Positions 944 to 13,788 of a stretch of 64,000 nucleotides of DNA are shown one piece after another (within the stretch, counting starts at the first letter, position 1; each line of letters starts with the position of its first letter). The notes beneath the pieces were generated by a model. That model was given only the letters and a program-made list of their open reading frames with translations. It ran no database searches and was not told the origin of the DNA. The stretch spans positions 1,369,001 to 1,433,000 of the forward strand of contig NZ_CP126080.1 in assembly GCF_030122805.1 (NCBI RefSeq), given 5' to 3'. Both the position numbers and the translations under genes were made by a program. The stretch is from Mesobacillus sp. AQ2 (GTDB lineage Bacteria; Bacillota; Bacilli; Bacillales; Cytobacillaceae).

Positions 944-3900
944 ATGCAGGGAACATTGCCATTGATCAAAACAAAGCTGATTGTCCCCAGTTTGCAGGAA
1001 CAATGGATAAGGCGTGCGGATTTTTCGAAGAAAATGAAAGCGATTACCGAAAAACGGCTGACCGTTATCCAGGCAGGGGCAGGTTATGGGAAGAGTACCG
1101 CTCTCGCGATGTATGTCAGGGACCAGAACGAGCAATGCTGCTGGTATACCATCACTTCTTCCGATGACGATATTCTCCCGTTTTTATCCTATTTGACAGC
1201 TTCGATCCAAACCTTGTTCCCGGACTTTGGCTTTGAATTAACAGCCTATATGAAAAAGATGGATCGCTATATAAGAGAAGAGGAATTAAGCATGCTCTCT
1301 TCGCTTTTCATCAACGAAACCTTGCAAATACCTGCGCCAATTATCGTCATCCTGGATGATTTCCACGCAATAGAACATTCCTACCATATCAATGTCTGGA
1401 TGGAAAAGCTGCTTGAGCATATGCCAGACCATCTTCATCTCGTCATTTCGACCAGGACGAAGCCGGGTTGGAAGGTTCTTGCCAAAATGAAGGCAAGGAA
1501 TGAGTTGAATGAGATTTCGAAAAGCGATTTGATTTTTGGCAAGGAAGAAATCGAATTACTGCTCTCTGACTATTATCAAATGACAATCAGTGACGAACAA
1601 ATCGACCAATTGTACAACATTACTGAAGGCTGGGTCATCGCGGTCGGAATGATTGCTCAGCAGCTGCCTCATCTTCAGAGTCTTGATGACCTTTTAACGG
1701 AGCCTGCAAAGTCGCTGGAGGATTTGTTTCAATACCTGGTTCATGAAGTATTCTCAAAACAGCCTCCGATGATTCAGCAGTTCCTCGAGCAGACCTGCAT
1801 TTTCGAAGAAATCAGCTCTGAAGTATGTGATCACATACTTGGCATGAACGGTTCAGTCCAGATGCTGCAGCAGCTGGCAGCGAAAAACCTGTTCATTCAT
1901 CAAGTTGGCGAGAACCAATTCCGCTATCATGCTCTTTTCCGTGAGTTCCTCGAGAATCGGCTGCTCACAAACCGGCCAGAGCATTACCATTATTTGATTT
2001 TGAACAGTGGACGTTATTTTGAAAAGAACGGACAGTGGGAAGAAGCTTTATACTGCTATGAAAAGGCCGGCCAATATAATGCAGCAGCAGCGATTATGGA
2101 TGAACAGGGATTGGAACTCCTTGAGAGGGGCAAACTCGAGAATCTGCAGGAGCGGCTGGTAAAAATCCCACAGGAAAATAAAGAGCGCTATTGTTCCCTA
2201 TTATTCCTGGAAGGTGAGGTTTATCGCTACCGGTCCATGTACCAGCAGGCGGAAAGATGTTATGAAAAAGCGATCCAGACAGCTGAGAGTACCGGCAATG
2301 TGGAGTGGGAAAGCAGAGCGCTTGAAGGAAAAGCAAAAATATATCTTGATACAATTCAGCCTCTGAAAGCGGAACGTATTTTGGCCAGGGCAATCGAACT
2401 CAGGGAAACAGCAAAGCTCGAGGGCACAGCCAAGGAAACAGGGAGACTGTACAGGCTGCTTGCCGAAAACCTGATCAATTCCGGACAGGCAGTGAAAGCT
2501 GAAAAATGGATTGAACGGGCGAGGGCGATGGGGGTGCAGATTGAAGACGGGAACCTTGAGGCTCGTCTCTACCTTAGGACCGGCCGATTCGCTGAGACCA
2601 GGAGGATTTTAACGGATATAAAGGGAGTGGATAAGCTCCACCTGCCCCTATCCCATCGGGAAACAGACTTGTTGTTGGCATTGATTGAAGCTTTTACAGG
2701 CAATGGAATGCAAGCGAAGATCCTGTCCCAGTCAGGCATTGAACATGGGATCAACAGCAAGGCACCATTCGTGGAGGCGTGCGGCTGGATCAGAATGGGG
2801 CATGCTGTTCAGCTGATTGATCAATACGATCTGGAGATGGCAGAAAAATGCTATGAAACTGCACTCGATATTATGGGCCGGCTGAGCATCGAAAGAGGGA
2901 AGGCTGAACCGCTGATGGGCCTTTGCATACTCTATGGGTCAAGAAGGGAATATGAGCGTTCTGCCGAGGCTGGAAGAAAGGCGCTGCTTGAAACGGAACA
3001 GGTGAAGGATGTTTGGCTTTCTGCCTTGATCACGCTTTGCATGTCAATCTCGGCCATTTACAATGACAGGTTCAAGGAAGCAGCCGAATTCCTGAGAAAA
3101 GCAGAGGAATTGTTCTATCAGTGCGGTGATGAGTATGGCAAAATGCTGCTGTCATTCTGGGATTCAGTTCAATATTTTACATTAGGCGATGAAGAAGGTT
3201 TCAAAACGGCATTCGCCAGCTTTTTAAAAAGAATGAAAACTGGTGGATATGAATTTTTCCTGAAAAAGAAGACGACATTTGGCCCCCGGGACTTGCAGAT
3301 CCTCTCCCCGATGCTGATTCAGGCAATGAAGCTTTCAATTGTTCCGGCATATACGGAGAAGCTGATGGAGGATTTAAAAATTCCACGCCTTAATGCCCAT
3401 CCTGGCTATACGTTAAGGGTTCAGACTCTGGGACAATTCCGTCTTTGGCTTGGGGATAGGGAAGTGGAGGACAGAAGCTGGCAAAGAGGGAAGGCGAAAG
3501 AGCTTTTCCAGCTTTTCCTGACAAAAAGGAATCAGTTCTTGATGAAAGAAGATATCTTTCAGATTCTGTGGCCAGCATATGAGGATAAAAATGCAGACAG
3601 AGATTTCAAAGTCGCGCTGAATGCTTTGAACAATGTCCTTGAACCTGCACGTAAGGCAAGGGCAGCCCCGTTTTTCGTCATCAGGGATGGGACTGGTTAT
3701 GGAATAAATCCTCACGCAGCGATAGAGCTGGATTCACGCCTTTTCGAAGAATGGGCAGAAACCGGTCTGGAAGAGAAGAACACCGAAAAATCAATAGAGG
3801 AACTAGAGCGCGCATTGCATTTATATAATGGGGATTATCTCCCGGAACGGAGATATGAAGACTGGTGCATCAATGAGCGGGAAAGGCTGCTGGTCTATTT

Positions 3901-4174
3901 TTTGCGCAGTGCCGAGAAACTGGCACAGCTGAATGTTAGGCGTGAAAACTATGACTCTGCCATCCACTGGTGCCAAAAAATCCTCCACAAGGATCGAACA
4001 TGGGAGGAAGCGTATAGACTATTGATGTTTTGCTATTATCGAAAAAACAATCGTCCACAGGCAATCCGGTGGTATCGGAAGTGTTGTGACGTACTGGAGG
4101 AAGAGCTAGGTGTAACTCCGCTTGAACCGACCAGGCATATGTATGACATGATCATCGAAGGAACGAATGCGTGA
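944..4174 (+). CDS. MalT/SARP-type transcriptional regulator (STAND ATPase + winged helix + BTAD)
   Basis: This is a 1076-residue cytoplasmic regulator. The N-terminus is a MalT-like STAND ATPase with P-loop GAGYGKST (residues 45-52) and Walker B VILDDFH near residue 142. A long TPR-like helical region with repeated AxxYxxA patterns covers about residues 370-800. The C-terminus has an OmpR/SARP-type winged helix beginning LRVQTLGQFRLWLGD (about 824-920) and then a bacterial transcriptional activator domain (BTAD, about 930-1070). The DNA-binding part is thus SARP-like and C-terminal, unlike MalT, which ends in a LuxR-type HTH. SARP winged helices bind short direct repeats with 11-bp period. 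Such repeats occur upstream of the importer operon and of the acyl-CoA ligase in this island, which suggests that these are its targets. The start follows GGCGGAGA. Confidence 0.85.
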   Translation: MQGTLPLIKTKLIVPSLQEQWIRRADFSKKMKAITEKRLTVIQAGAGYGKSTALAMYVRDQNEQCCWYTITSSDDDILPFLSYLTASIQTLFPDFGFELTAYMKKMDRYIREEELSMLSSLFINETLQIPAPIIVILDDFHAIEHSYHINVWMEKLLEHMPDHLHLVISTRTKPGWKVLAKMKARNELNEISKSDLIFGKEEIELLLSDYYQMTISDEQIDQLYNITEGWVIAVGMIAQQLPHLQSLDDLLTEPAKSLEDLFQYLVHEVFSKQPPMIQQFLEQTCIFEEISSEVCDHILGMNGSVQMLQQLAAKNLFIHQVGENQFRYHALFREFLENRLLTNRPEHYHYLILNSGRYFEKNGQWEEALYCYEKAGQYNAAAAIMDEQGLELLERGKLENLQERLVKIPQENKERYCSLLFLEGEVYRYRSMYQQAERCYEKAIQTAESTGNVEWESRALEGKAKIYLDTIQPLKAERILARAIELRETAKLEGTAKETGRLYRLLAENLINSGQAVKAEKWIERARAMGVQIEDGNLEARLYLRTGRFAETRRILTDIKGVDKLHLPLSHRETDLLLALIEAFTGNGMQAKILSQSGIEHGINSKAPFVEACGWIRMGHAVQLIDQYDLEMAEKCYETALDIMGRLSIERGKAEPLMGLCILYGSRREYERSAEAGRKALLETEQVKDVWLSALITLCMSISAIYNDRFKEAAEFLRKAEELFYQCGDEYGKMLLSFWDSVQYFTLGDEEGFKTAFASFLKRMKTGGYEFFLKKKTTFGPRDLQILSPMLIQAMKLSIVPAYTEKLMEDLKIPRLNAHPGYTLRVQTLGQFRLWLGDREVEDRSWQRGKAKELFQLFLTKRNQFLMKEDIFQILWPAYEDKNADRDFKVALNALNNVLEPARKARAAPFFVIRDGTGYGINPHAAIELDSRLFEEWAETGLEEKNTEKSIEELERALHLYNGDYLPERRYEDWCINERERLLVYFLRSAEKLAQLNVRRENYDSAIHWCQKILHKDRTWEEAYRLLMFCYYRKNNRPQAIRWYRKCCDVLEEELGVTPLEPTRHMYDMIIEGTNA

Positions 4175-5327: not shown

Positions 5328-5360
5328 TGTAACTCATTTGTAACTGCATTTTTTTAAGAT
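5328..5360 (+). promoter_or_regulatory. SARP-type direct-repeat promoter of the importer operon
   Basis: TGTAACT at 5328-5334 is repeated at 5339-5345, an 11-bp period on the same face of the helix. The -10 hexamer TAAGAT begins at 5355, nine bases after the second repeat, and no good -35 box is present. Repeats replacing the -35 box, with the last one about 8 bp from the -10, are the known arrangement for SARP activators. The same element with identical spacing occurs at 13756-13788. Confidence 0.7.
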
Positions 5361-5409: not shown

Positions 5410-6654
5410 ATGAAAGCGGGTAAACGGAATTTTGCTTTATCTTTTATGCTTATTTTAGTCCTGTTGTTCACGAGTGCCTGTGGCGGATCGGGAACAGAGA
5501 AGTCAGGTGGAACAGAAGGAAAAGAAGGGAAGGATGAACCGAAAAACACGGAACCGATCAAGATCGGCGTCCTGGCTTCACAAACAGGCGGGCTTGAGGC
5601 TTATGGGAAGCAGACACTTCGAGGGTTCGAGCTGGGTCTGGAATATGCTACTGATGGAACCAATGAAGTAGCCGGCCGTAAAATCGAATTCATTGTCGAA
5701 GATACGGAAACAAAACCAGAGGTAGCTGTCCAGAAAGCAACAAAGCTTCTTGAGGAAGATGAAGTTGATTTCCTTGTGGGTTCATCAAGCTCTGGTGACA
5801 CCCTGGCAGTCCTGCCATTGGCTGAGGAATATGAAAAGATCATGATTGTAGAACCTGCTGTTGCAGACAGCATTACCGGATCCGAATTCAATGAATATAT
5901 TTTCCGCACAGCGCGGAATTCTTCACAGGATGCTGTAGCAGGTGCTGCTGCAATTGCCAAGAAAGGCGTGAAAATCGCTACTCTTGCACCGGATTATTCG
6001 TTTGGCCGTGATGGCGTCTCGGCTTTCAAGGAAGCAGCAGAAAAACTCGGCGCAGAAATCATCCATGAAGAATACGCAGATCCTGCTGCAACGGACTTCA
6101 CTTCGAACATCCAGAAAATCATCGACCAGAAGCCGGATTACTTATTCGTTGTCTGGGCTGGCGCCAACTCACCATGGAACCAGATTGCTGACATGAAGGT
6201 CCAGGAAAAAGGCATTAAAATTTCTACCGGTGCTCCTGATATCGCTGCACTTTCGACAATGGAGCCGCTGATTGGCATGGAAGGCTTTACTGTTTATTAT
6301 CATGATCTTCCGCAAAATGACATTAATAAATGGCTCGTGGACGAACATAAAAAACGCTTTAATGGCGAACTGCCCGACCTGTTCACTCCAGGAGGCATGA
6401 CAGCTGCGATGGCAATCGTAGAAGCCTTGAAGAAAACCGAAGGAAACGCGGACTCCAAGAAACTGATCAAAACAATGGAAGGCATGAGTTTTGACACTCC
6501 GAAAGGCAAGATGACCTTCCGGGAAGAGGACCATCAGGCACTCCAGGCATTATACGCCATCAAGCTGGAGAAAAAGGATGGAGTCAACTATCCAGTCCCA
6601 GTCCTGATCCGTGAACTGTCACCGGAAGAAACGGCTCCTCCGGTACGCAATTAA
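5410..6654 (+). CDS. Liv-type ABC importer substrate-binding lipoprotein
   Basis: This 414-residue lipoprotein captures the substrate outside the membrane for the importer encoded downstream. The signal peptide ends in the lipobox FTSAC with the lipidated Cys24, then a Gly/Ser/Glu-rich linker leads to the mature domain starting IKIGVLASQTGGLEAYGKQ. This is the periplasmic-binding-protein type 1 fold (Peripla_BP_6, LivJ/LivK family), which also includes proteins for aromatic acids, amides and urea, so leucine is not implied. The ATG at 5410 is chosen over an upstream in-frame ATG at 5359 because AAAGGGGGAG precedes it and the signal peptide starts there. A weak hairpin after the gene can give the binding protein more transcript than the other subunits. 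Confidence 0.92.
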   Translation: MKAGKRNFALSFMLILVLLFTSACGGSGTEKSGGTEGKEGKDEPKNTEPIKIGVLASQTGGLEAYGKQTLRGFELGLEYATDGTNEVAGRKIEFIVEDTETKPEVAVQKATKLLEEDEVDFLVGSSSSGDTLAVLPLAEEYEKIMIVEPAVADSITGSEFNEYIFRTARNSSQDAVAGAAAIAKKGVKIATLAPDYSFGRDGVSAFKEAAEKLGAEIIHEEYADPAATDFTSNIQKIIDQKPDYLFVVWAGANSPWNQIADMKVQEKGIKISTGAPDIAALSTMEPLIGMEGFTVYYHDLPQNDINKWLVDEHKKRFNGELPDLFTPGGMTAAMAIVEALKKTEGNADSKKLIKTMEGMSFDTPKGKMTFREEDHQALQALYAIKLEKKDGVNYPVPVLIRELSPEETAPPVRN

Positions 6655-6667
6655 CTTAAATGTCCAT

Positions 6668-6699
6668 AATGAACTTCGGTAAATCAGCCGGAGTTCATT
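6668..6699 (+). terminator. attenuating stem-loop after the binding-protein gene
   Basis: AATGAACTTCGG pairs with CCGGAGTTCATT over 12 bp (one G-U) with an 8-base loop. Only a weak T stretch follows, so it probably gives partial termination or 3'-end protection between the binding-protein gene and the ATPase/permease genes. Confidence 0.6.
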
Positions 6700-6739
6700 A
6701 TACTTTTACTCCAATATTCTAAAGGTGGTGAACCAAAGC

Positions 6740-7513
6740 ATGACGGCAATTCTCGAAACAAAAAATCTTAGCATAACATTTGGCGGCCATACCGCGGTGG
6801 ACTCTGTCAGCATCTCGGTACCCCCTAACCATTTCAAATCGATCATCGGGCCAAACGGTGCTGGCAAGACGACATTCTTCAATTTGTTAAGCGGTCAGCT
6901 TACTCCGACCGAAGGACAGGTCTTCTTTAAAGGCAATGAGATTACCAGGCTGTCACCGACAAAAAGGACGAGGGCCGGAATCGGCCGCTCCTTTCAAATC
7001 ACCAATGTCTTTCCAAACCTGACAGTGATGGAAAATGTCCGTCTTGCGGTCCAGTCGCATGAGGGAATCCGCTATCAAATGCTTAAACACTTCCAATCCT
7101 ACAATAAATTCGAGGAGCAGGCAGAGGAGTGGCTGAAGCTTGTGCTGCTGGATGACAGGAAGGATGCACTTGCGAGGAATCTGGCCCATGGAGAAAAAAG
7201 AAAGCTAGAAATCGCAATGCTGCTTGCCTTGAACACAGAAGTGCTCTTACTTGATGAACCGACAGCGGGAATGTCACTGGAAGAGGTTCCGGCCATACTT
7301 GACGTCATCCGTAAAATCAAACAACGGGGCGACAGGACGATTGTATTGATCGAGCACAAAATGGATATGATCATGGATCTCTCTGATACGATCATGGTTT
7401 TGTTCAACGGCGCGTTGCTTGCTGACGGAACTCCTGAAGAAATCATGAAAAATGAGACAGTCCAGTCTGCATATTTGGGAGGGTTGCATAGTGAGCACGC
7501 TGCTAAAGCTTGA
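6740..7513 (+). CDS. Liv-type ABC importer ATPase (LivG family)
   Basis: This 257-residue cytoplasmic ATPase powers the importer. It has Walker A GPNGAGKTT (residues 37-45), Walker B VLLLDEPTAGM, and a switch histidine in VLIEHKMDMI. The signature motif reads LAHGEKRKLEIAM, an H variant of the LSYGEQR form common in LivG. The insertion GRSFQITNVFPNLTVMENV is characteristic of LivG. The ATG at 6740 is preferred over GTGs at 6725 and 6728 because these lie inside the ribosome binding site AAAGGTGGTG. The gene overlaps the next ATPase by 23 bases, which suggests translational coupling. Confidence 0.93.
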   Translation: MTAILETKNLSITFGGHTAVDSVSISVPPNHFKSIIGPNGAGKTTFFNLLSGQLTPTEGQVFFKGNEITRLSPTKRTRAGIGRSFQITNVFPNLTVMENVRLAVQSHEGIRYQMLKHFQSYNKFEEQAEEWLKLVLLDDRKDALARNLAHGEKRKLEIAMLLALNTEVLLLDEPTAGMSLEEVPAILDVIRKIKQRGDRTIVLIEHKMDMIMDLSDTIMVLFNGALLADGTPEEIMKNETVQSAYLGGLHSEHAAKA

Positions 7514-8198
7514 TCAAATAGAAACATTCATCGGCCAGTACCATATCCTTCAAGGAGTATCTTTTGAGGTGCCGAAAGGCGAAGTGACGGTACTTCTTGG
7601 CCGTAATGGCGCCGGGAAGACAACGACCCTCAGGACCATCATGGGATTGAATCCGGCTGCCAAGGGATCTGTTTTATATAAAGGTGAGGAAATCAAGAGC
7701 CTGCCAACCTACACAATCGCCAATAAAGGAATCGGTTATGTGCCCGAAGATCAGGGGATTTTCGCTGACCTGACCGTCGAAGAGAACATCAAGGTGGCAG
7801 TCAAGAAAGAAAATGATGAAACCAGTCAGCGGCTTGACTGGATACTGGATCTGTTCCCTGACTTGAAAAAGTTTTGGAACAAGCCAGGCGGACTACTTAG
7901 CGGAGGGCAAAAACAAATGCTCTCGATCGCCAGGGCCTATGTAAATGACAATGAATTGCTGCTGATTGACGAGCCAAGCAAGGGCCTTGCCCCGATTGTC
8001 GTCGAGAAGGTCATGGAATCGATCCAGCAAATGAAAGAAAAAACGACCATCATCCTCGTGGAGCAGAATTTCATGATGGCCAGCACGATTGGAGACAGCT
8101 TCTACATTATTGATGATGGCAGGACGGTTTCGAACGGTTCAATGAATATTCTGCGGAATGATGAAGAAATGAGAAGGAAATATCTCGGGATTGCCTGA
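7491..8198 (+). CDS. Liv-type ABC importer ATPase (LivF family)
   Basis: This is the second ATPase of the importer, 235 residues. It has Walker A GRNGAGKTT (37-45), the LivF-type stretch GIGYVPEDQGIFADLTVEENI, signature LSGGQKQMLSIARA, Walker B LLLIDEPSKGLAP, and switch His replaced by Gln in ILVEQNFMM, as is normal for LivF. The GTG start at 7491 is chosen because GGGAGGG lies seven bases upstream and the protein then begins STLLKLDQIETFIGQ, in line with family N-termini. The open frame reaches further upstream only inside the preceding ATPase gene. The permease gene follows after 17 bases. Confidence 0.93.
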   Translation: MSTLLKLDQIETFIGQYHILQGVSFEVPKGEVTVLLGRNGAGKTTTLRTIMGLNPAAKGSVLYKGEEIKSLPTYTIANKGIGYVPEDQGIFADLTVEENIKVAVKKENDETSQRLDWILDLFPDLKKFWNKPGGLLSGGQKQMLSIARAYVNDNELLLIDEPSKGLAPIVVEKVMESIQQMKEKTTIILVEQNFMMASTIGDSFYIIDDGRTVSNGSMNILRNDEEMRRKYLGIA

Positions 8199-8215
8199 GA
8201 AAGGGGGAAGCAAGT

Positions 8216-9076
8216 GTGGATGTTTTGATAAACCTGAGCCTTAACGGCCTTGCCACAGGAATGCTGGTCTTTCTTCTGGCAGCCGGTCTCACTTTGATTT
8301 TTGGCCTGATGGATGTGCTTAATTTTGCCCATGGCGGCTTGTTTGCCTGGGGAGCCTACAGCGGGATTTGGATTTATACATCGACAGGCAGCTTTCTTAC
8401 CGGAATCATTGGTGCCATCCTTACGGGGATGATTCTTGGAATCGTGACGGAACGGTGGATCATCAAGCCGGTATACGGCAACCACGTACAGCAAATTTTG
8501 ATCACGCTCGGTTTGATGCTTGTTTTATCCGAAATGTTAAAAGTCGTCTGGGGACCGAACCAGATTTCAGCAGCCACGCCTGATTATCTGTCTGGCAGCT
8601 GGGAATTCGGCGGAATCATCATCATCAAATACCGTGTCTTCATCATTGCCGTCGGATTCGCGGTGTTTCTCGCCGTCCAATATTTGCTGAAGAAAACAAA
8701 GATCGGTCTCGTTGTTCGTGCGGGTGTCATGAACAAAGAAATGGTCCAGTCGCTGGGAATCAATATTCAGAAGGTCTTTATGTTTGTATTCATGATCGGA
8801 GCAGGCATGGCGGCACTTGGAGGCATGCTGTTAGGACCTTATTCCGGAGTGATTTATGCCGATATGGGCATGGAGTTCGCCATCCTGGCGTTCATCGTTG
8901 TCGTCATCGGCGGCATGGGCAGCTTCACAGGCTCGGTGATGGCGGCAATTTTAGTCGGTCTGTCAGGTTCTTTCATGGCCTATTATGTACCGGACCTGGC
9001 ACTGGCTGCGAACATGCTGCTGATGGCAGTCGTGCTTATTTTCAGGCCTCAGGGCTTGTTCGGGGCAAAGGGGTGA
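8216..9076 (+). CDS. Liv-type ABC importer permease (LivH family)
   Basis: This 286-residue inner-membrane permease has about eight hydrophobic segments. It begins DVLINLSLNGLATGMLVFLLAAGLTLIFGLMDVLNFAHGG; the GLMDVLNFAHG segment is the LivH family hallmark. Near the C-terminus, VVVIGGMGSFTGSVMAAILVG is the loop that contacts the ATPases. The GTG at 8216 follows AAAGGGGGAAG. It pairs with the LivM-type permease encoded next. The substrate cannot be told from the permease. Confidence 0.92.
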   Translation: MDVLINLSLNGLATGMLVFLLAAGLTLIFGLMDVLNFAHGGLFAWGAYSGIWIYTSTGSFLTGIIGAILTGMILGIVTERWIIKPVYGNHVQQILITLGLMLVLSEMLKVVWGPNQISAATPDYLSGSWEFGGIIIIKYRVFIIAVGFAVFLAVQYLLKKTKIGLVVRAGVMNKEMVQSLGINIQKVFMFVFMIGAGMAALGGMLLGPYSGVIYADMGMEFAILAFIVVVIGGMGSFTGSVMAAILVGLSGSFMAYYVPDLALAANMLLMAVVLIFRPQGLFGAKG

Positions 9077-9083
9077 AGCGGAA

Positions 9084-10094
9084 GTGATAAAGATGTTTTC
9101 AAATCGCATGAATATATTGTATTTACTTGCTGCCGTGTTTTTGGCTGTTCTCCCTTTTGTCTATGACTCAAGGAGCATGCTCATCCTGCTCTCGCAGGTT
9201 TTCATTTTTGCCGTGCTTGCGATGAGCTATGACATCCTGCTCGGATACACGGGCATTGTCTCCTTCGGACATGCGATGTTTTTCGGGATCGGTGCTTACA
9301 CGGTTGGTGTCTTCATGAAAAGATTCGAACCGGAAACGAGCTATTTTTTGCTGGCCGTATTGGTCACGATTTTACTTACAGCACTTGTCAGTTATTTTGT
9401 CGGCCTGCTCACGCTAAGGCTGAAAAGCCATTTTTACGCGATGCTGACGCTGGCCTTTGCCGGGTTGTTCCTCGTGCTTGCTGAAAAATGGCGGACAGTC
9501 ACATATGGAAATGATGGATTCACATTCAGAGTCCCGGACTTTTTAAAGGACCGGACGGATTTTTACCTGATTTGCCTTGGCTCCATGGTGATTGTGTTCA
9601 TCTTATTGAAAAGGTTCACGAACTCGCCGCTCGGAAAGGTGCTTCAGGCCATCCGGGAAAATGAGCAAAGGACGGAGTCACTGGGATACAGCGTCCTGCA
9701 GTATAAGGTCATTGCAAGTGTGGTGTCCGGAGTGATTGCCGGGATCGCAGGAATTTTGTATGCCGTCTCCCTCAGGTTTGTCAACACGAGTGTATTCACG
9801 ATGGATATCACTCTCGACGCCTTGCTGATGACGATCATCGGCGGAGTCGGAACGCTAGTAGGTGCCATCATTGGCGCCGGGATCATCGAATTCTCCCACC
9901 ACTGGCTGACAGAACTGGCAAAGGTCCACTGGATCTTTGAAAGATGGATCATCTTTTTTGGAATCATTTATATACTCGCTGTCATGTTCTTCCCGATGGG
10001 GATTGTCGGTTCCTTAAAGAAGTTGAAATTCAGCAGGAAAAAGAAAGCACCTGCTTCCTTAAATTCGGATGCCGTCAGTCAGGGCGAGTCATGA
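9084..10094 (+). CDS. Liv-type ABC importer permease (LivM family)
   Basis: This is the second importer permease, 336 residues. Multiple membrane segments are present with family motifs LGYTGIVSFGHAMFFGIGAY (about residues 52-71) and TIIGGVGTLVGAIIGAG near residue 250. A basic cytoplasmic tail (LKKLKFSRKKKAP) follows. The GTG start at 9084 lies seven bases after the LivH stop. The stop TGA overlaps the ATG of the following small gene (ATGA at 10091-10094), so these two genes are translationally coupled. Confidence 0.92.
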   Translation: MIKMFSNRMNILYLLAAVFLAVLPFVYDSRSMLILLSQVFIFAVLAMSYDILLGYTGIVSFGHAMFFGIGAYTVGVFMKRFEPETSYFLLAVLVTILLTALVSYFVGLLTLRLKSHFYAMLTLAFAGLFLVLAEKWRTVTYGNDGFTFRVPDFLKDRTDFYLICLGSMVIVFILLKRFTNSPLGKVLQAIRENEQRTESLGYSVLQYKVIASVVSGVIAGIAGILYAVSLRFVNTSVFTMDITLDALLMTIIGGVGTLVGAIIGAGIIEFSHHWLTELAKVHWIFERWIIFFGIIYILAVMFFPMGIVGSLKKLKFSRKKKAPASLNSDAVSQGES

Positions 10095-10317: not shown

Positions 10318-11334
10318 GTGCAGATCGGGATTGTCAGCACAGGAATCTATCTTCCGGAAACATATATAACAGGAAGGGAAATTGCTCGGGCAGCAGGAAT
10401 TCCGGAAATGGTTGTGGAAGAAAAAATGGGAATCAAGAAAAAGCCTGTTCCTGGTCAGGAAGACCATACATGTGAGATGGGAATCAGGGCTGCAAAGACG
10501 GCAATCGAAAAAGCGGGTATCGATCCGATGGAGATTGATCTGGTGATCTATATCGGTGAGGAATACAAGGAGTATCCATTATGGACTGCCGGAATCAAGC
10601 TTCAGGAAGAAATCGGCGCTTATAATGCCTGGGCATTTGATACAGCATTGCGTTGCGGGACGACAGTCATGGCATTGAAACTTGCCAGGGGCATGATGCT
10701 GTCCGACCCTGAAATCAAAACGGTGCTGCTGGCTGGCGGCTATCGGAACGGGGATTTCATCGACTACCAGAATCCGCGGACCCGCTTCATGTACAATCTC
10801 GGAGCAGGCGGCGGGGCGATTTTACTGAAAAAGGGCCATCAGGAAAATCTGCTGCTCGAAACAGAAATGATTACTGACGGGTCTTTTTCCGAGGATGTCG
10901 TCGTGGTTGCAGGGGGAACGAAAAATCCGCTTTCGGCAGAAAGTCTGAAGCGGGGTCTTTATCAGCTTGATGTCCTCGATCCACAGGGAATGAAAGAAAG
11001 GCTGGAGCAAAAGTCGATGGCCAACTTCCTGAAGGTCATCCGTCGGTCCGTGGAAAAAAGCGGTTTTTCAGAAAAAGATATTTCATACATTGGGATGCTG
11101 CATATGAAGCGTTCCGCGCACCAGTTTGTTTTACAGGAATTAGGACTAGGTGAATCCAATTCTATTTATCTCGAAGACTATGGACATATCGGCCAGATTG
11201 ACCAGATCCTGTCGCTGGAACTGGCTGAAAAGGCAGGAAAGCTGAAGGACGGGGATATTGTAGTCCTTGTCAGTGCCGGGATCGGCTATGCCTGGGGAGC
11301 AACAACTATACGCTGGGGGAAGGGTGAAGCTTGA
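10318..11334 (+). CDS. beta-ketoacyl-ACP synthase III-like condensing enzyme
   Basis: This 338-residue protein has a thiolase-fold of the FabH/HMG-CoA-synthase type. The N-terminus VGI-like IVSTGIYLPETYIT, the nucleophile region DTALRCGTTVMAL (Cys113, FabH Cys112), and the C-terminal DGDIVVLVSAGIGYAWGATTIRW all match. FabH uses Cys-His-Asn. Here alignment gives His262 (in GMLHMKRS, lacking the HQAN box) and His290 (in EDYGHIGQ) in place of Asn. It is therefore probably not the housekeeping FabH but a special acyl-CoA condensing or cleaving enzyme. The GTG at 10318 behind AAGGAGGG is preferred over the ATG at 10267, which would overlap the preceding gene. The next gene starts directly at the stop. 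Confidence 0.82.
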   Translation: MQIGIVSTGIYLPETYITGREIARAAGIPEMVVEEKMGIKKKPVPGQEDHTCEMGIRAAKTAIEKAGIDPMEIDLVIYIGEEYKEYPLWTAGIKLQEEIGAYNAWAFDTALRCGTTVMALKLARGMMLSDPEIKTVLLAGGYRNGDFIDYQNPRTRFMYNLGAGGGAILLKKGHQENLLLETEMITDGSFSEDVVVVAGGTKNPLSAESLKRGLYQLDVLDPQGMKERLEQKSMANFLKVIRRSVEKSGFSEKDISYIGMLHMKRSAHQFVLQELGLGESNSIYLEDYGHIGQIDQILSLELAEKAGKLKDGDIVVLVSAGIGYAWGATTIRWGKGEA

Positions 11335-12237
11335 ATGGAGAAAACGGCTTTCGAATTGAAAAAAGTTGATTTGCCTAATGGTGAAAGCATTGCTTATCGG
11401 GAACGGGACGGCGGCGTGAAAAACGTGCTGCTGATCCATGGAAACATGACATCATCAAAGCATTGGGATGTGCTGATTGATCAGATGGATCCGGAGTATA
11501 AAGTGTATGCGATGGACATGAGGGGATTCGGCGGCTCGAGTTACCGCAAGCCCATCATGTCAATCAAGGATTTTTCCGATGATGTAAAGCTGTTTGTCGA
11601 CGAAATCGGGTTAAATAATTTTTCACTTGTTGGCTGGTCGACAGGTGGTGCGGTAGGAATGCAGTTTGCTGCTGATTATCCTGGCTATTGCGAAAAACTG
11701 GTGCTGCTCGCCTCTGCGTCAACAAGGGGTTACCCGTTCTTCGGAACGAGTCCGGAAGGCTTGCCTGATCTGGACAATCGACTTAAGACGTATGATGATG
11801 TTAAGGCGGATACCGGAAAAACGATTGCTGTCCAGACTGCATACGACGGGCAGAATAGAGGATTTTTAAAGGCGATGTGGAATATGTTGATCTATACCGA
11901 GCGTCAGCCGGAAGCAGCACATTATGAAGAGTATGTCGATGATATGCTGACACAGCGAAATCTGGCAGAGGTCTATCATTCTCTCAATAGTTTTAATATC
12001 AGTGGTGTTGATAACGGTTTGGGGATGGGGACAGATCAGGTAAAGGATATCCAGATTCCTGTCCTAGTCCTCCGAGGTGACCGCGATCTTGTTGTCACAA
12101 GCAAGATGGCCGACGAAATTGTCGAGGATTTTGCAGGTCGTGCAAGATTTGCAGAGTTGAAGAATTGCGGCCATTCGCCACTAGTGGATGATTTGGATCA
12201 GCTGCTAAGGCATATCGATGGATTTTTAGCAGAATAG
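11335..12237 (+). CDS. alpha/beta-hydrolase fold enzyme
   Basis: This 300-residue cytoplasmic hydrolase has oxyanion-hole motif LLIHGNMTSSKHWD, nucleophile elbow VGWSTGGAVG (Ser near residue 105), acid residue region VLRGDRDLVV, and catalytic His in NCGHSPLVDD. Similar enzymes cleave esters, lactones, thioesters or C-C bonds of beta-diketones; the substrate is not evident. It starts at the base after the stop of the KAS III-like gene, and the SDR gene begins 12 bases after it. The three are thus parts of one operon with the importer. A thioesterase or C-C hydrolase role in an acyl-CoA pathway is an inference. Confidence 0.85.
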   Translation: MEKTAFELKKVDLPNGESIAYRERDGGVKNVLLIHGNMTSSKHWDVLIDQMDPEYKVYAMDMRGFGGSSYRKPIMSIKDFSDDVKLFVDEIGLNNFSLVGWSTGGAVGMQFAADYPGYCEKLVLLASASTRGYPFFGTSPEGLPDLDNRLKTYDDVKADTGKTIAVQTAYDGQNRGFLKAMWNMLIYTERQPEAAHYEEYVDDMLTQRNLAEVYHSLNSFNISGVDNGLGMGTDQVKDIQIPVLVLRGDRDLVVTSKMADEIVEDFAGRARFAELKNCGHSPLVDDLDQLLRHIDGFLAE

Positions 12238-12249
12238 GAAGGTGTTTTT

Positions 12250-12990
12250 ATGAGACTGCAAGATAAAGTAGCGATCATTACCGGAGGGGCAAATGGGATT
12301 GGCCTTGCCGCAGCGAAAACCTTTGTGCGTGAAGGCGCACGGGTGGCAATGGCGGATTTTGATGAGGAAACAGGATCACAGCGCGCAGCCGAGCTCAAAG
12401 CAGAAGGCTATGAAGCAGCCTTTTTCCAGGTGAACGTCGCTGATAAGGATAGCGTGGATTCGATGGTAAAGGATGTTCTGTCCCATTTTGGCAAGATTGA
12501 TATTCTTGTAAATAATGCAGGCATCACAAGGGACGGGATGCTGCACAAACTCGCTGTGGAGGATTTTCAGAAAGTTGTTGATGTCAACCTGACAGGCGTC
12601 TTCCATTGCGCCCAGGCCGTTGTCCCGGCAATGGTCCAGCAGGGATCTGGAAGAATCATCAATACCTCTTCCGTCTCCGGCATTTACGGCAATGTCGGCC
12701 AGACCAACTACGCAGCAACAAAGGCGGGGGTTGTCGGGATGACGAAAACCTGGGCAAAAGAGCTCGGCCGCAAAGGAATCAACGTCAATGCCGTCGCCCC
12801 AGGATTCATTGAGACCGGCATGACAGCTAAAGTACCGGAAAAGGTGATTGAGCACATGAAAATGCTCGTCCCGCTCGGCAGACTGGGCTTGCCCGAGGAT
12901 ATCGCGAATGCCTACCTCTTCCTGGCCTCAGATGAATCAAAATATGTGAATGGCACCACCCTCCATGTGGACGGCGGAATCATGATGTAA
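12250..12990 (+). CDS. SDR-family oxidoreductase, FabG/PhaB-like 3-oxoacyl reductase
   Basis: This is a 246-residue classical short-chain dehydrogenase. It has the cofactor motif TGGANGIG (residues 11-18), the NNAG motif in ILVNNAGITRDGML, catalytic Ser in NTSSVSG, and YxxxK in YAATKAG. The C-terminal VNGTTLHVDGGIMM closes the fold. The sequence is close to FabG and acetoacetyl-CoA reductases, which reduce 3-oxoacyl thioesters with NADPH. The context of a KAS III-like enzyme and a hydrolase suggests a beta-hydroxy/beta-oxo acyl-CoA step. It is the last gene of the operon that starts at 5410; a strong terminator follows. Confidence 0.87.
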   Translation: MRLQDKVAIITGGANGIGLAAAKTFVREGARVAMADFDEETGSQRAAELKAEGYEAAFFQVNVADKDSVDSMVKDVLSHFGKIDILVNNAGITRDGMLHKLAVEDFQKVVDVNLTGVFHCAQAVVPAMVQQGSGRIINTSSVSGIYGNVGQTNYAATKAGVVGMTKTWAKELGRKGINVNAVAPGFIETGMTAKVPEKVIEHMKMLVPLGRLGLPEDIANAYLFLASDESKYVNGTTLHVDGGIMM

Positions 12991-12995
12991 TGTTG

Positions 12996-13024
12996 AAAAA
13001 GCGCACTTGCTGCGCTTTTTTTTA
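12996..13024 (+). terminator. terminator of the importer/SDR operon
   Basis: AAAAAGCGCA pairs perfectly with TGCGCTTTTT over 10 bp with a 5-base loop, followed by more T. Confidence 0.93.
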
Positions 13025-13060: not shown

Positions 13061-13216
13061 CAACCGGGAATATATTTGCTGCAACCGTTAAATAAATCAT
13101 CCCAACCGTATAATAAATTGTCTCAACCGTTAAATAAATCGAGCCAACCGTTAAATAAATCCTCGAGCCGTGAAAAAACCTTCCAACTGGTAAAAAAATT
13201 CGATTCCACCGGTATT
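13061..13216. repeat. intergenic array 1: about eight units of 21 bp
   Basis: CAACCG recurs at 13061, 13082, 13103, 13124 and 13145, exactly 21 bp apart. Degraded copies follow (GAGCCG 13165, CAACTG 13184, CCACCG 13206). The central units read CAACCG-TTAAA-TAAAT followed by five variable bases. The array occupies most of the gap between the operon terminator and the next gene. There is no open frame on either strand that is supported by a ribosome binding site. Confidence 0.85.
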
Positions 13217-13373: not shown

Positions 13374-13706
13374 ATGGAAGAGCAAAAACAGAGGTATTAC
13401 TTCAATATAGAAAGCGGCGAGGTGCTGGATACGCCAGCAGATCAGGAGGGCCATTTCTTCACGTTGATCGCGACAGGAGAGGAAATCAAGGATCTGCGCG
13501 AGTACCTGGAAGTGAACTATAAAGCAGACTGGGCGACTTACGGGAATTCCCATCTGCACCCTTTCAAGGACCCGGATCGCGAGCATGCAGAATATGACAT
13601 GGCCTTGAAGGAGATTTACGCAATGGTTTACAGACTTGGCGATGCCGAGGCAAAGAATCATGTGAGGAATATGGGCATCTTATCAGAAGAAGAGTTAATT
13701 AAATAA
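13374..13706 (+). CDS. conserved-looking 110-residue protein of unknown function
   Basis: This soluble protein starts MEEQKQRYYFNIESGEVLD and contains HPFKDPDREHAEYDMALKEIYAMVYRLGD. It is acidic, without membrane segments or cysteines. I do not recognise the family with certainty. The ATG at 13374 is chosen because GAGGTG lies eight bases upstream and the extension to an earlier ATG at 13275 runs through non-coding-looking sequence. It is a single-gene unit between repeat array 1 and its own terminator, and its link to the flanking island is not evident. Confidence 0.7.
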   Translation: MEEQKQRYYFNIESGEVLDTPADQEGHFFTLIATGEEIKDLREYLEVNYKADWATYGNSHLHPFKDPDREHAEYDMALKEIYAMVYRLGDAEAKNHVRNMGILSEEELIK

Positions 13707-13714
13707 GCGACCCG

Positions 13715-13747
13715 AACACCATGGCCATCCAGGCTGTGGTGTTTTTT
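13715..13747 (+). terminator. rho-independent terminator
   Basis: AACACCA-TG-GCC pairs with GGC-TG-TGGTGTT with a small internal loop and is followed by six T. Confidence 0.8.
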
Positions 13748-13755
13748 GCATTCGA

Positions 13756-13788
13756 TGTAACTATCCTGTAACTCCCAATCTTTAAAAT
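13756..13788 (+). promoter_or_regulatory. SARP-type direct-repeat promoter of the acyl-CoA ligase gene
   Basis: TGTAACT at 13756-13762 is repeated at 13767-13773 (11-bp period). The -10 hexamer TAAAAT begins at 13783, nine bases after the second repeat. Motif, repeat spacing and distance to the -10 are identical to the element at 5328-5360, so both promoters are probably read by the same activator, most likely the regulator encoded at 944-4174. Confidence 0.7.

Follow-up and report, generated by a model that had tools for sequence, protein, structure and literature searches.

In the stretch of DNA analysed here (64,000 nucleotides of the Mesobacillus sp. AQ2 genome, hereafter the window), two promoters 8.4 kb apart carry the same pair of heptamers, one ahead of an importer operon and the other ahead of a separate acyl-CoA ligase gene (Table 1). 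This raises the questions of whether the two units form one regulon, which protein recognises the boxes, and what the genes behind them are for. The two identical switches are probably bound by a neighbouring activator that belongs to a class familiar in antibiotic producers. On sequence grounds, a probability of roughly 0.8 is given to the reading that the boxes are operators of the adjacent SARP-module activator, and that its regulon imports and breaks down products of polyhydroxybutyrate (PHB). The regulon and its regulator are strongly supported, and a function in scavenging PHB or hydroxyalkanoates is probable.

Table 1. Features of the locus, with positions counted from the first base of the window.
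Feature	Position	Strand	Remarks
Regulator (REG, P0001), 1076 aa	944..4174	+	N-terminal MalT-like NTPase, TPR middle, C-terminal SARP module
Box 1, TGTAACT-CATT-TGTAACT	5328..5345	+	Ahead of importer operon
-10 TAAGAT	5355..5360	+	9 nt (GCATTTTTT) past box 1
LIV-type importer substrate-binding protein (SBP)	5410..6654	+	Peripla_BP_6, 234 bits
ABC ATPase, LivG-like	6740..7513	+	ABC_tran and BCA_ABC_TP_C
ABC ATPase, LivF-like	7491..8198	+	ABC_tran
Permease, LivH-like	8216..9076	+	BPD_transp_2
Permease, LivM-like	9084..10094	+	BPD_transp_2
Small conserved ORF, 60 aa	10091..10273	+	No Pfam match; same place in most relatives' loci
KAS III-like thiolase-superfamily enzyme	10318..11334	+	NF005308/PRK06840, 535 bits (cut-off 315)
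PhaZ, predicted intracellular-type short-chain-length PHA depolymerase/oligomer hydrolase	11335..12237	+	NF050089 i_nPHAscl, 454.9 bits (cut-off 300)
FabG-like short-chain dehydrogenase	12250..12990	+	adh_short_C2, 252 bits; NF004198 and TIGR01830 over cut-off
Terminator-like hairpin, operon end	12995..13021	+	
Terminator-like hairpin, after ORF 13374-13706	13714..13744	+	Directly upstream of box 2
Box 2, TGTAACT-ATCC-TGTAACT	13756..13773	+	Ahead of separate acyl-CoA ligase gene
-10 TAAAAT	13783..13788	+	9 nt (CCCAATCTT) past box 2
Acyl-CoA ligase, AMP-forming, 503 aa	13823..15334	+	AMP-binding, 285 bits

The initial annotation described an identical arrangement at the two sites. This holds for the heptamer, the 11-bp period and the 9-nt gap, but the -10 hexamers differ (TAAAAT and TAAGAT). 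It also placed a terminator and a repeat array between the two units, and both are present. With terminator-like hairpins at the operon end and directly upstream of box 2, the ligase probably needs its own promoter. The array, between the operon terminator and ORF 13374, is a 21-bp tandem repeat (13082-13161, 3.8 copies, consensus CAACCGTTAAATAAATCGTCC).

Two such matches had been judged unlikely by chance, and the numbers bear this out. The complete genome (one contig, 4,803,959 bases) has two exact matches to TGTAACT-N4-TGTAACT and none to a reversed-pattern control, against about 0.06 exact pairs expected from base composition (0.0013 if TA-N3-T follows). The genome-wide pattern scan that had been proposed as a check thus shows no random excess, the only sites being those of the importer and the ligase. 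Within the window, the box with its -10 (up to three mismatches) gives two matches, compared with a shuffle mean of 0.07, and none of 100 shuffles reaches two. A chance or low-information likeness of the two promoters might be argued from the AT-richness of the heptamer and from a loose scan of the window for the box without the -10, where three mismatches yield five matches against 3.1 expected, so that only the exact or spaced pattern is telling. However, the exact pair is found at two places only in the genome, and it is kept across genera at both genes, where the upstream flanks are not. Shuffles, genome-wide rarity and the base-composition expectation together rule coincidence out for practical purposes. 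Neither box promoter is detected in a scan for the sigma-70 consensus, as would be expected of activator-dependent promoters.

The likely regulator for both boxes is encoded by the first gene of Table 1 (944-4174), which ends 1.2 kb upstream of the importer operon. Its Pfam matches are BTAD (79 bits, residues 929-1070), TPR and NPHP3_N, and the best NCBIfam match of its N-terminal part is MalT, with 229 bits, under the cut-off of 537. In an AlphaFold model of residues 815-1076, built from 30 aligned sequences (mean pLDDT 85), the winged helix begins at about residue 824. A fold search of the PDB with this modelled SARP module gives AfsR or EmbR as all of the six best matches (255-264 columns, E 7e-10 to 2e-8), with a loose inter-domain fit (TM 0.47-0.54, rmsd about 8), so that the fold is established and its details are not. 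In a phmmer search of the PDB with the 262-residue module, AfsR (8hvr) is matched over residues 10-258 with E 0.0029, as the last of 15 matches; the 14 ahead of it, TPR proteins or designed ones, align with the TPR-like part. The motif RDFKVALN is nearly invariant in 30 aligned regulators (an alignment that omits fifteen minus-strand loci, L128 with a stop, near-identical rows and the partial L095) and falls in helix 67-85 of the modelled module, which on the model we take for the recognition helix.

The protein thus has the winged-helix DNA-binding domain followed by BTAD that marks SARPs, and its putative targets have direct heptameric repeats of 11-bp period near a -10, with the -35 replaced or overlapped. 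It departs from the typical SARP in two respects. The module is not N-terminal, as BTAD occupies residues 929-1070 of 1076, and control of antibiotic clusters in actinomycetes does not apply, the targets being an importer, a ligase and depolymerases, and the named carriers Mesobacillus, Neobacillus, Robertmurraya, Sutcliffiella, Bacillus and similar genera. The initial view of the box as SARP-type agrees with the presence of a SARP-module gene 1.2 kb upstream of the operon that co-occurs with the box in other genomes.

Several known regulators resemble parts of this one. MalT has the same N-terminal NTPase and TPR sensor architecture, but the window's regulator falls under the MalT cut-off and has a SARP-like DNA-binding end, whereas MalT ends in a LuxR-type domain. 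PimR carries its SARP part at the N-terminus. PimR and other SARP-LAL proteins, as described in passages of PMC5930380, also join a SARP to a large ATPase and have heptameric repeats with 4-bp spacers, but the main operator of PimR has three repeats, lies upstream of the -35 and uses the heptamer CGGCAAG. AfsR of Streptomyces coelicolor, a large SARP, has the winged helix and BTAD module together with NTPase and TPR parts, and its afs box, like the boxes of the window, consists of two 11-bp direct repeats that replace the -35. In the window's regulator, however, the module is C-terminal rather than N-terminal, the host belongs to the Bacillales, the heptamer is TGTAACT, and the targets are catabolic genes rather than antibiotic genes. 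In actinomycetes, heptameric repeats of 11-bp period are well known as sites of SARP regulators (passages of PMC10936776 and PMC5930380).

Two features of the regulator promoter were considered and rejected. Autoregulation through the box finds no support in a scan allowing one mismatch upstream of the regulator, nor by eye in 23 upstream stretches, and a palindrome at the window's regulator promoter is not conserved in the same 23 stretches. A record titled Chryseobacterium sp. ISL-80 (L124) carries this locus with a regulator 97% identical; its label is probably wrong.

To relate box and regulator, two genome samples were scanned. In the family sample of 101 genomes, 36 have the regulator at E<=1e-50, and the exact box is present in 30 of these, compared with one of the 65 others (Fisher 1e-18; here and below P values are only indicative, because the genomes are related), the reversed control occurring twice in 101. 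A search for TGTAAC cores followed at the fixed gap by TA-N3-T gives 35/36 and 1/65, with three reversed matches in 101. The sole family genome missed by this core and -10 pattern, G008, has only a fragment of the regulator. Further damaged or partial regulators among the 36 are those of G023 (six internal stops), G063 (split) and G084 (on two contigs); G023 and G063 keep their boxes despite the damage. In two family genomes the counted pattern lies away from the importer and ligase promoters: in G040 the exact match is chance-like and the match with the -10 is a third site (see below), and in G025 the exact match is the promoter of a depolymerase gene.

The order sample comprises 299 genomes, 11 of them common to the family sample, and 79 have the regulator at E<=1e-60. 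Here the pattern is found in 71/79 genomes with the regulator and 8/220 without (Fisher 6e-50), and once in the reversed control. In two of the eight misses (G008, G297) the regulator is fragmentary. In each of the remaining six, a box with no more than one mismatch precedes the importer gene, and the -10 behind it does not fit TA-N3-T; the regulators of these six share only 42-44% identity with that of the window. Among the eight genomes with the pattern but without the regulator, the five inspected have no related gene behind it, and the remaining three have the same 33-mer as one of these five. Across 712 kb of regulator loci, 66 boxes were found with up to one mismatch: 34 before the SBP gene, 30 before the ligase, one before KAS and one elsewhere (G016 is counted twice).

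The pairing of box and regulator is therefore strongly supported. Direct repeats with an 11-bp period are also typical of OmpR/PhoP-type regulators, so the box might in principle belong to another protein, such as an OmpR-type response regulator, with the linked SARP gene as a passenger. We consider this very improbable, given that box presence tracks the SARP gene in both samples (101 and 299 genomes) and that the putative recognition helix is nearly invariant in the 30 aligned regulators. In addition, a single operon in G030 and in G069 combines importer (SBP 80% identical), KAS, PhaZ and ligase, yet both genomes lack the SARP gene and the box, so the pairing follows the regulator and not the operon. 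The SARP-module protein is thus very probably the regulator for both boxes.

The same dependence is seen around the importer itself. The binding protein is found at E<=1e-100 in 43 family genomes. All 34 regulator-bearing family genomes with an importer have the box (up to one mismatch) before the main copy, compared with none of 11 other importer copies, even with two mismatches allowed in their 20-kb loci. These 11 are nine copies in regulator-free genomes and second copies in two regulator-bearing ones (G021, G087). In the G021 locus (L075), the second ATPase gene is interrupted by an insert of about 1.7 kb (about 6640-8388). Nine distant importer clusters (L141, L142, L145-L151; SBP about 70% identical) have their own upstream ligase and KAS genes and are box-free, apparently the same transport module under other control; in the two with upstream ORFs covered far enough (G037 and G062), the gene in front looks TetR-type by eye.

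Promoter architecture was compared in the relatives' 20-kb loci, with each promoter anchored on its best box match up to 330 nt upstream of the gene. Conservation within the box is therefore partly by construction, which does not apply to the -10, the spacing or the unconserved flank. Three bases of the -10 (the first T, the A next to it and the last T), at a fixed distance from the box, do not vary in any of the 33 importer promoters (from 32 genomes, G016 contributing two) or the 30 ligase promoters. The split importer match of G098 and the ligase of G016, cut by the locus end, were left out of this set, as were a ligase paralogue of G012 (41%) and the operon-fused ligase of G087 from the ligase consensus. 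In the 30 nt upstream of the box no position reaches 70% conservation, and a conserved -35 is lacking. At 7 nt past the -10 there is a conserved A (A5367 in the window's importer promoter); were transcription to start at this base, the 22-bp frame of the box would span about -39 to -18. By comparison, the afs box spans -40 to -19, and the distance from the 3' repeat of SARP sites to the -10 is quoted as 8 bp (passages of PMC10936776), against 9 nt for the window's boxes. The conserved CAAAGCTT near the inferred start was considered as a hairpin of the importer mRNA and rejected, as the window's leader folds no better than shuffled sequences (z 0.61).

The box before a separate ligase gene is found in 30 family genomes and in six genomes of other families (G341, G377, G289, G136, G326, G110), and it is kept in G039, G016, G019 and G023, where this box lies 6 to 11 kb beyond FabG. 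In G087 and G161 the ligase directly follows PhaZ and has no box of its own. Three genomes (G020, G040, G053) retain both boxes with an operon that lacks KAS-PhaZ-FabG, so these three genes are not obligatory, and in G063 the importer is lost and the box precedes KAS. The importer box takes the form TGTAACC-CATT-TGTAACC, with unchanged spacing, in Sutcliffiella and its near relatives, whose regulators are 48-49% identical. The proposal that ligase and importer operon are one regulon is supported by the uniqueness of the pattern in the genome, the conservation of the box in relatives and the box-free fused ligases.

G020, G053 and G040 (L168, L169, L170), which belong to one genus, have in common a third box-like site, TGTAACAGA[CG]TTGTAACT, followed at the fixed gap by a -10. 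Genes for a dehydrogenase and a different alpha/beta hydrolase, possibly replacements for KAS-PhaZ-FabG, begin 380-650 nt downstream of this site in G020 and G040; in G053 no gene is named.

Exact boxes away from the two promoters occur in six family genomes, about the number expected by chance in 101 genomes (about six), but four of them (G025, G023, G096, G012) precede a gene for a secreted esterase, and chance is rejected as an explanation for these. The other two (G040, G074) are chance-like. The esterase gene of G012 is a 134-aa remnant without TA-N3-T and is omitted from the counts below. The proteins of G023 and G025, which were scanned against NF050058 (type-1 extracellular, e_dPHAscl), score 323.1 and 325.9 bits (cut-off 150); the other depolymerase genes were found by similarity to the G023 protein. 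That search yields 15 genes in 12 of the 101 family genomes, and a box with up to one mismatch precedes 5/7 in regulator genomes vs 0/8 in others. As the query itself is boxed, G023, G025 and G096 are discovery cases and not independent, but the order-level count is independent.

In the order sample, 12 further box sites in regulator genomes were picked by position alone (far from the regulator or not on its contig; two G233 sites on a neighbouring contig were omitted). They precede nine depolymerase genes, one ligase gene, one gene for another secreted hydrolase (G357) and one unrelated gene. The depolymerase search finds 43 genes in 29 of the 299 order genomes, and 31 were inspected (30 with DNA, plus the second gene of G103, from L201), the remaining 12 being in regulator-free genomes. 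A box with TA-N3-T and up to two mismatches, a limit chosen after seeing the data (boxed genes have 0-2 mismatches and all others at least four), precedes 13/15 in regulator genomes vs 0/16 elsewhere. Family and order combined, 18/22 depolymerase genes are boxed in regulator genomes, compared with 0/24 inspected in others (Fisher 3e-9). In G006, G031, G152 and G297, the regulator is present together with a depolymerase that has no box. G187 and G242 each have a single cluster in which the depolymerase gene stands between those for FabG and the ligase. The presence of the same switch before a secreted PHB-depolymerase-type enzyme in relatives suggests a bacterial control circuit for eating bioplastic. 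The first secreted depolymerases were located by the box alone, so the operator is usable as a search tag.

The boxed gene of G357 (L191, 3666-4922, minus strand) encodes a secreted-looking 418-aa alpha/beta hydrolase with no NCBIfam match and only weak similarity to lipases, and may represent another type of secreted PHB depolymerase. The PhaZ-like gene behind it scores 127 bits (cut-off 300).

As to the substrate, the set of secreted depolymerase, importer, PhaZ, dehydrogenase and ligase reads as that needed for use of extracellular PHB. The window's PhaZ, an alpha/beta hydrolase, has 8ynv and 8ynw as its only solved relatives at E<=1e-15, and both entries are named poly(3-hydroxybutyrate) depolymerase. 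The ligase and binding protein are not diagnostic, as their nearest solved relatives (8weu, 8wev, 3n0x) handle fatty or aromatic acids or are without assignment. Among the 25 NCBIfam matches listed for the ligase, only the broad subfamily PRK06187 is over its cut-off and no specific equivalog is, so models do not name its substrate, and the literature passages on 3n0x hold nothing on a ligand that could be transferred to the binding protein.

With the same regulator and promoters, the substrate could instead be another hydrophobic carboxylic acid or ester (aromatic or medium-chain fatty), and the depolymerase-like enzymes general esterases. This would fit the most constant core, which is importer and ligase, KAS, PhaZ and FabG being absent in G020, G040 and G053, and also the nearest solved ligases, a fatty-acyl-CoA synthase and a feruloyl-CoA synthetase. 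In R. palustris, too, binding proteins of the LIV type often bind aromatic, fatty or dicarboxylic acids (passages of PMC3223731). However, two PHB depolymerase families are tied to the box, one intracellular (455 bits) and one secreted (323 bits), and all boxed depolymerase genes, 5 in the family and 13 in the order sample, are in regulator-bearing genomes, with none among the 24 inspected elsewhere. A substrate of this other kind is thus unlikely, and PHB products are preferred.

The polymer itself is probably no substrate for most carriers, as at E<=1e-60 29 of the 36 regulator-bearing family genomes have no secreted depolymerase and two have an unboxed one only. At this threshold the window's own genome has none. 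It also has no match to the PHA synthase model PF07167, for which a Caulobacter control is over the cut-off; TIGR01836 gives no more than weak partial matches (23 and 21.7 bits; cut-off 365), and there no control passes the cut-off. Without a secreted depolymerase and a PF07167 PHA synthase, the window's organism would feed on oligomers or monomers that have already been released.

For binding, activation, inducer, substrate and reaction order, we infer the following scheme. Two SARP modules would sit side by side on the two heptamers, on the same face of the DNA given the 11-bp period, where they would overlap the position that a -35 element normally takes and would bring RNA polymerase to the -10 starting 9 nt downstream. 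The NTPase and TPR part of the regulator would sense an inducer, most likely the imported hydroxyacid, its oligomer or its CoA ester. Where present, the secreted PHB depolymerase would cut the polymer, the LIV-type importer would take up oligomers or monomers, and PhaZ would hydrolyse the oligomers. CoA would be attached by the separately encoded ligase, and oxidation of the hydroxyacyl unit by the dehydrogenase would give the 3-keto product, on which the KAS III-like enzyme may act. There are good reasons for the suggestion of the initial annotation that the imported acid is activated by the ligase. With somewhat less confidence than the PHB regulon itself, we favour the wider view that a SARP-type ATPase of Bacillales senses extracellular PHB breakdown products and switches on a complete scavenging regulon (depolymerase, oligomer importer, hydrolase, ligase and dehydrogenase), and that carriers without the secreted enzyme use oligomers released by others.

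Regulators of PHB-related genes are known, among them PhaR and, from Bacillus megaterium, PhaQ, a DNA-binding, PHA-responsive, autoregulated repressor, but these concern PHB synthesis and granule proteins (passages of PMC9049629). The words SARP and AfsR are absent from the main text of that review. Searches of the openly licensed PubMed Central literature showed no description of PHB use in Bacillales under a SARP-type regulator, which makes a weak negative. Intracellular (i_nPHAscl) and secreted type-1 (e_dPHAscl) depolymerases are likewise known, and their models are met in the window and in relatives, respectively; unlike in known PHB depolymerase systems, one operator type is here shared with an importer and a CoA ligase. 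If the reading is true, polymer-eating catabolism in Bacillales is run by a class of regulators known mainly for the control of antibiotics in actinomycetes, a regulator, an operator and an importer can be named for the use of environmental PHB, a bioplastic, and the sensing of an insoluble polyester by a bacterium becomes testable.

Within the importer operon, a terminator-like hairpin (6666-6701) lies between the SBP gene and the first ATPase gene, and could lead to more binding protein than importer.
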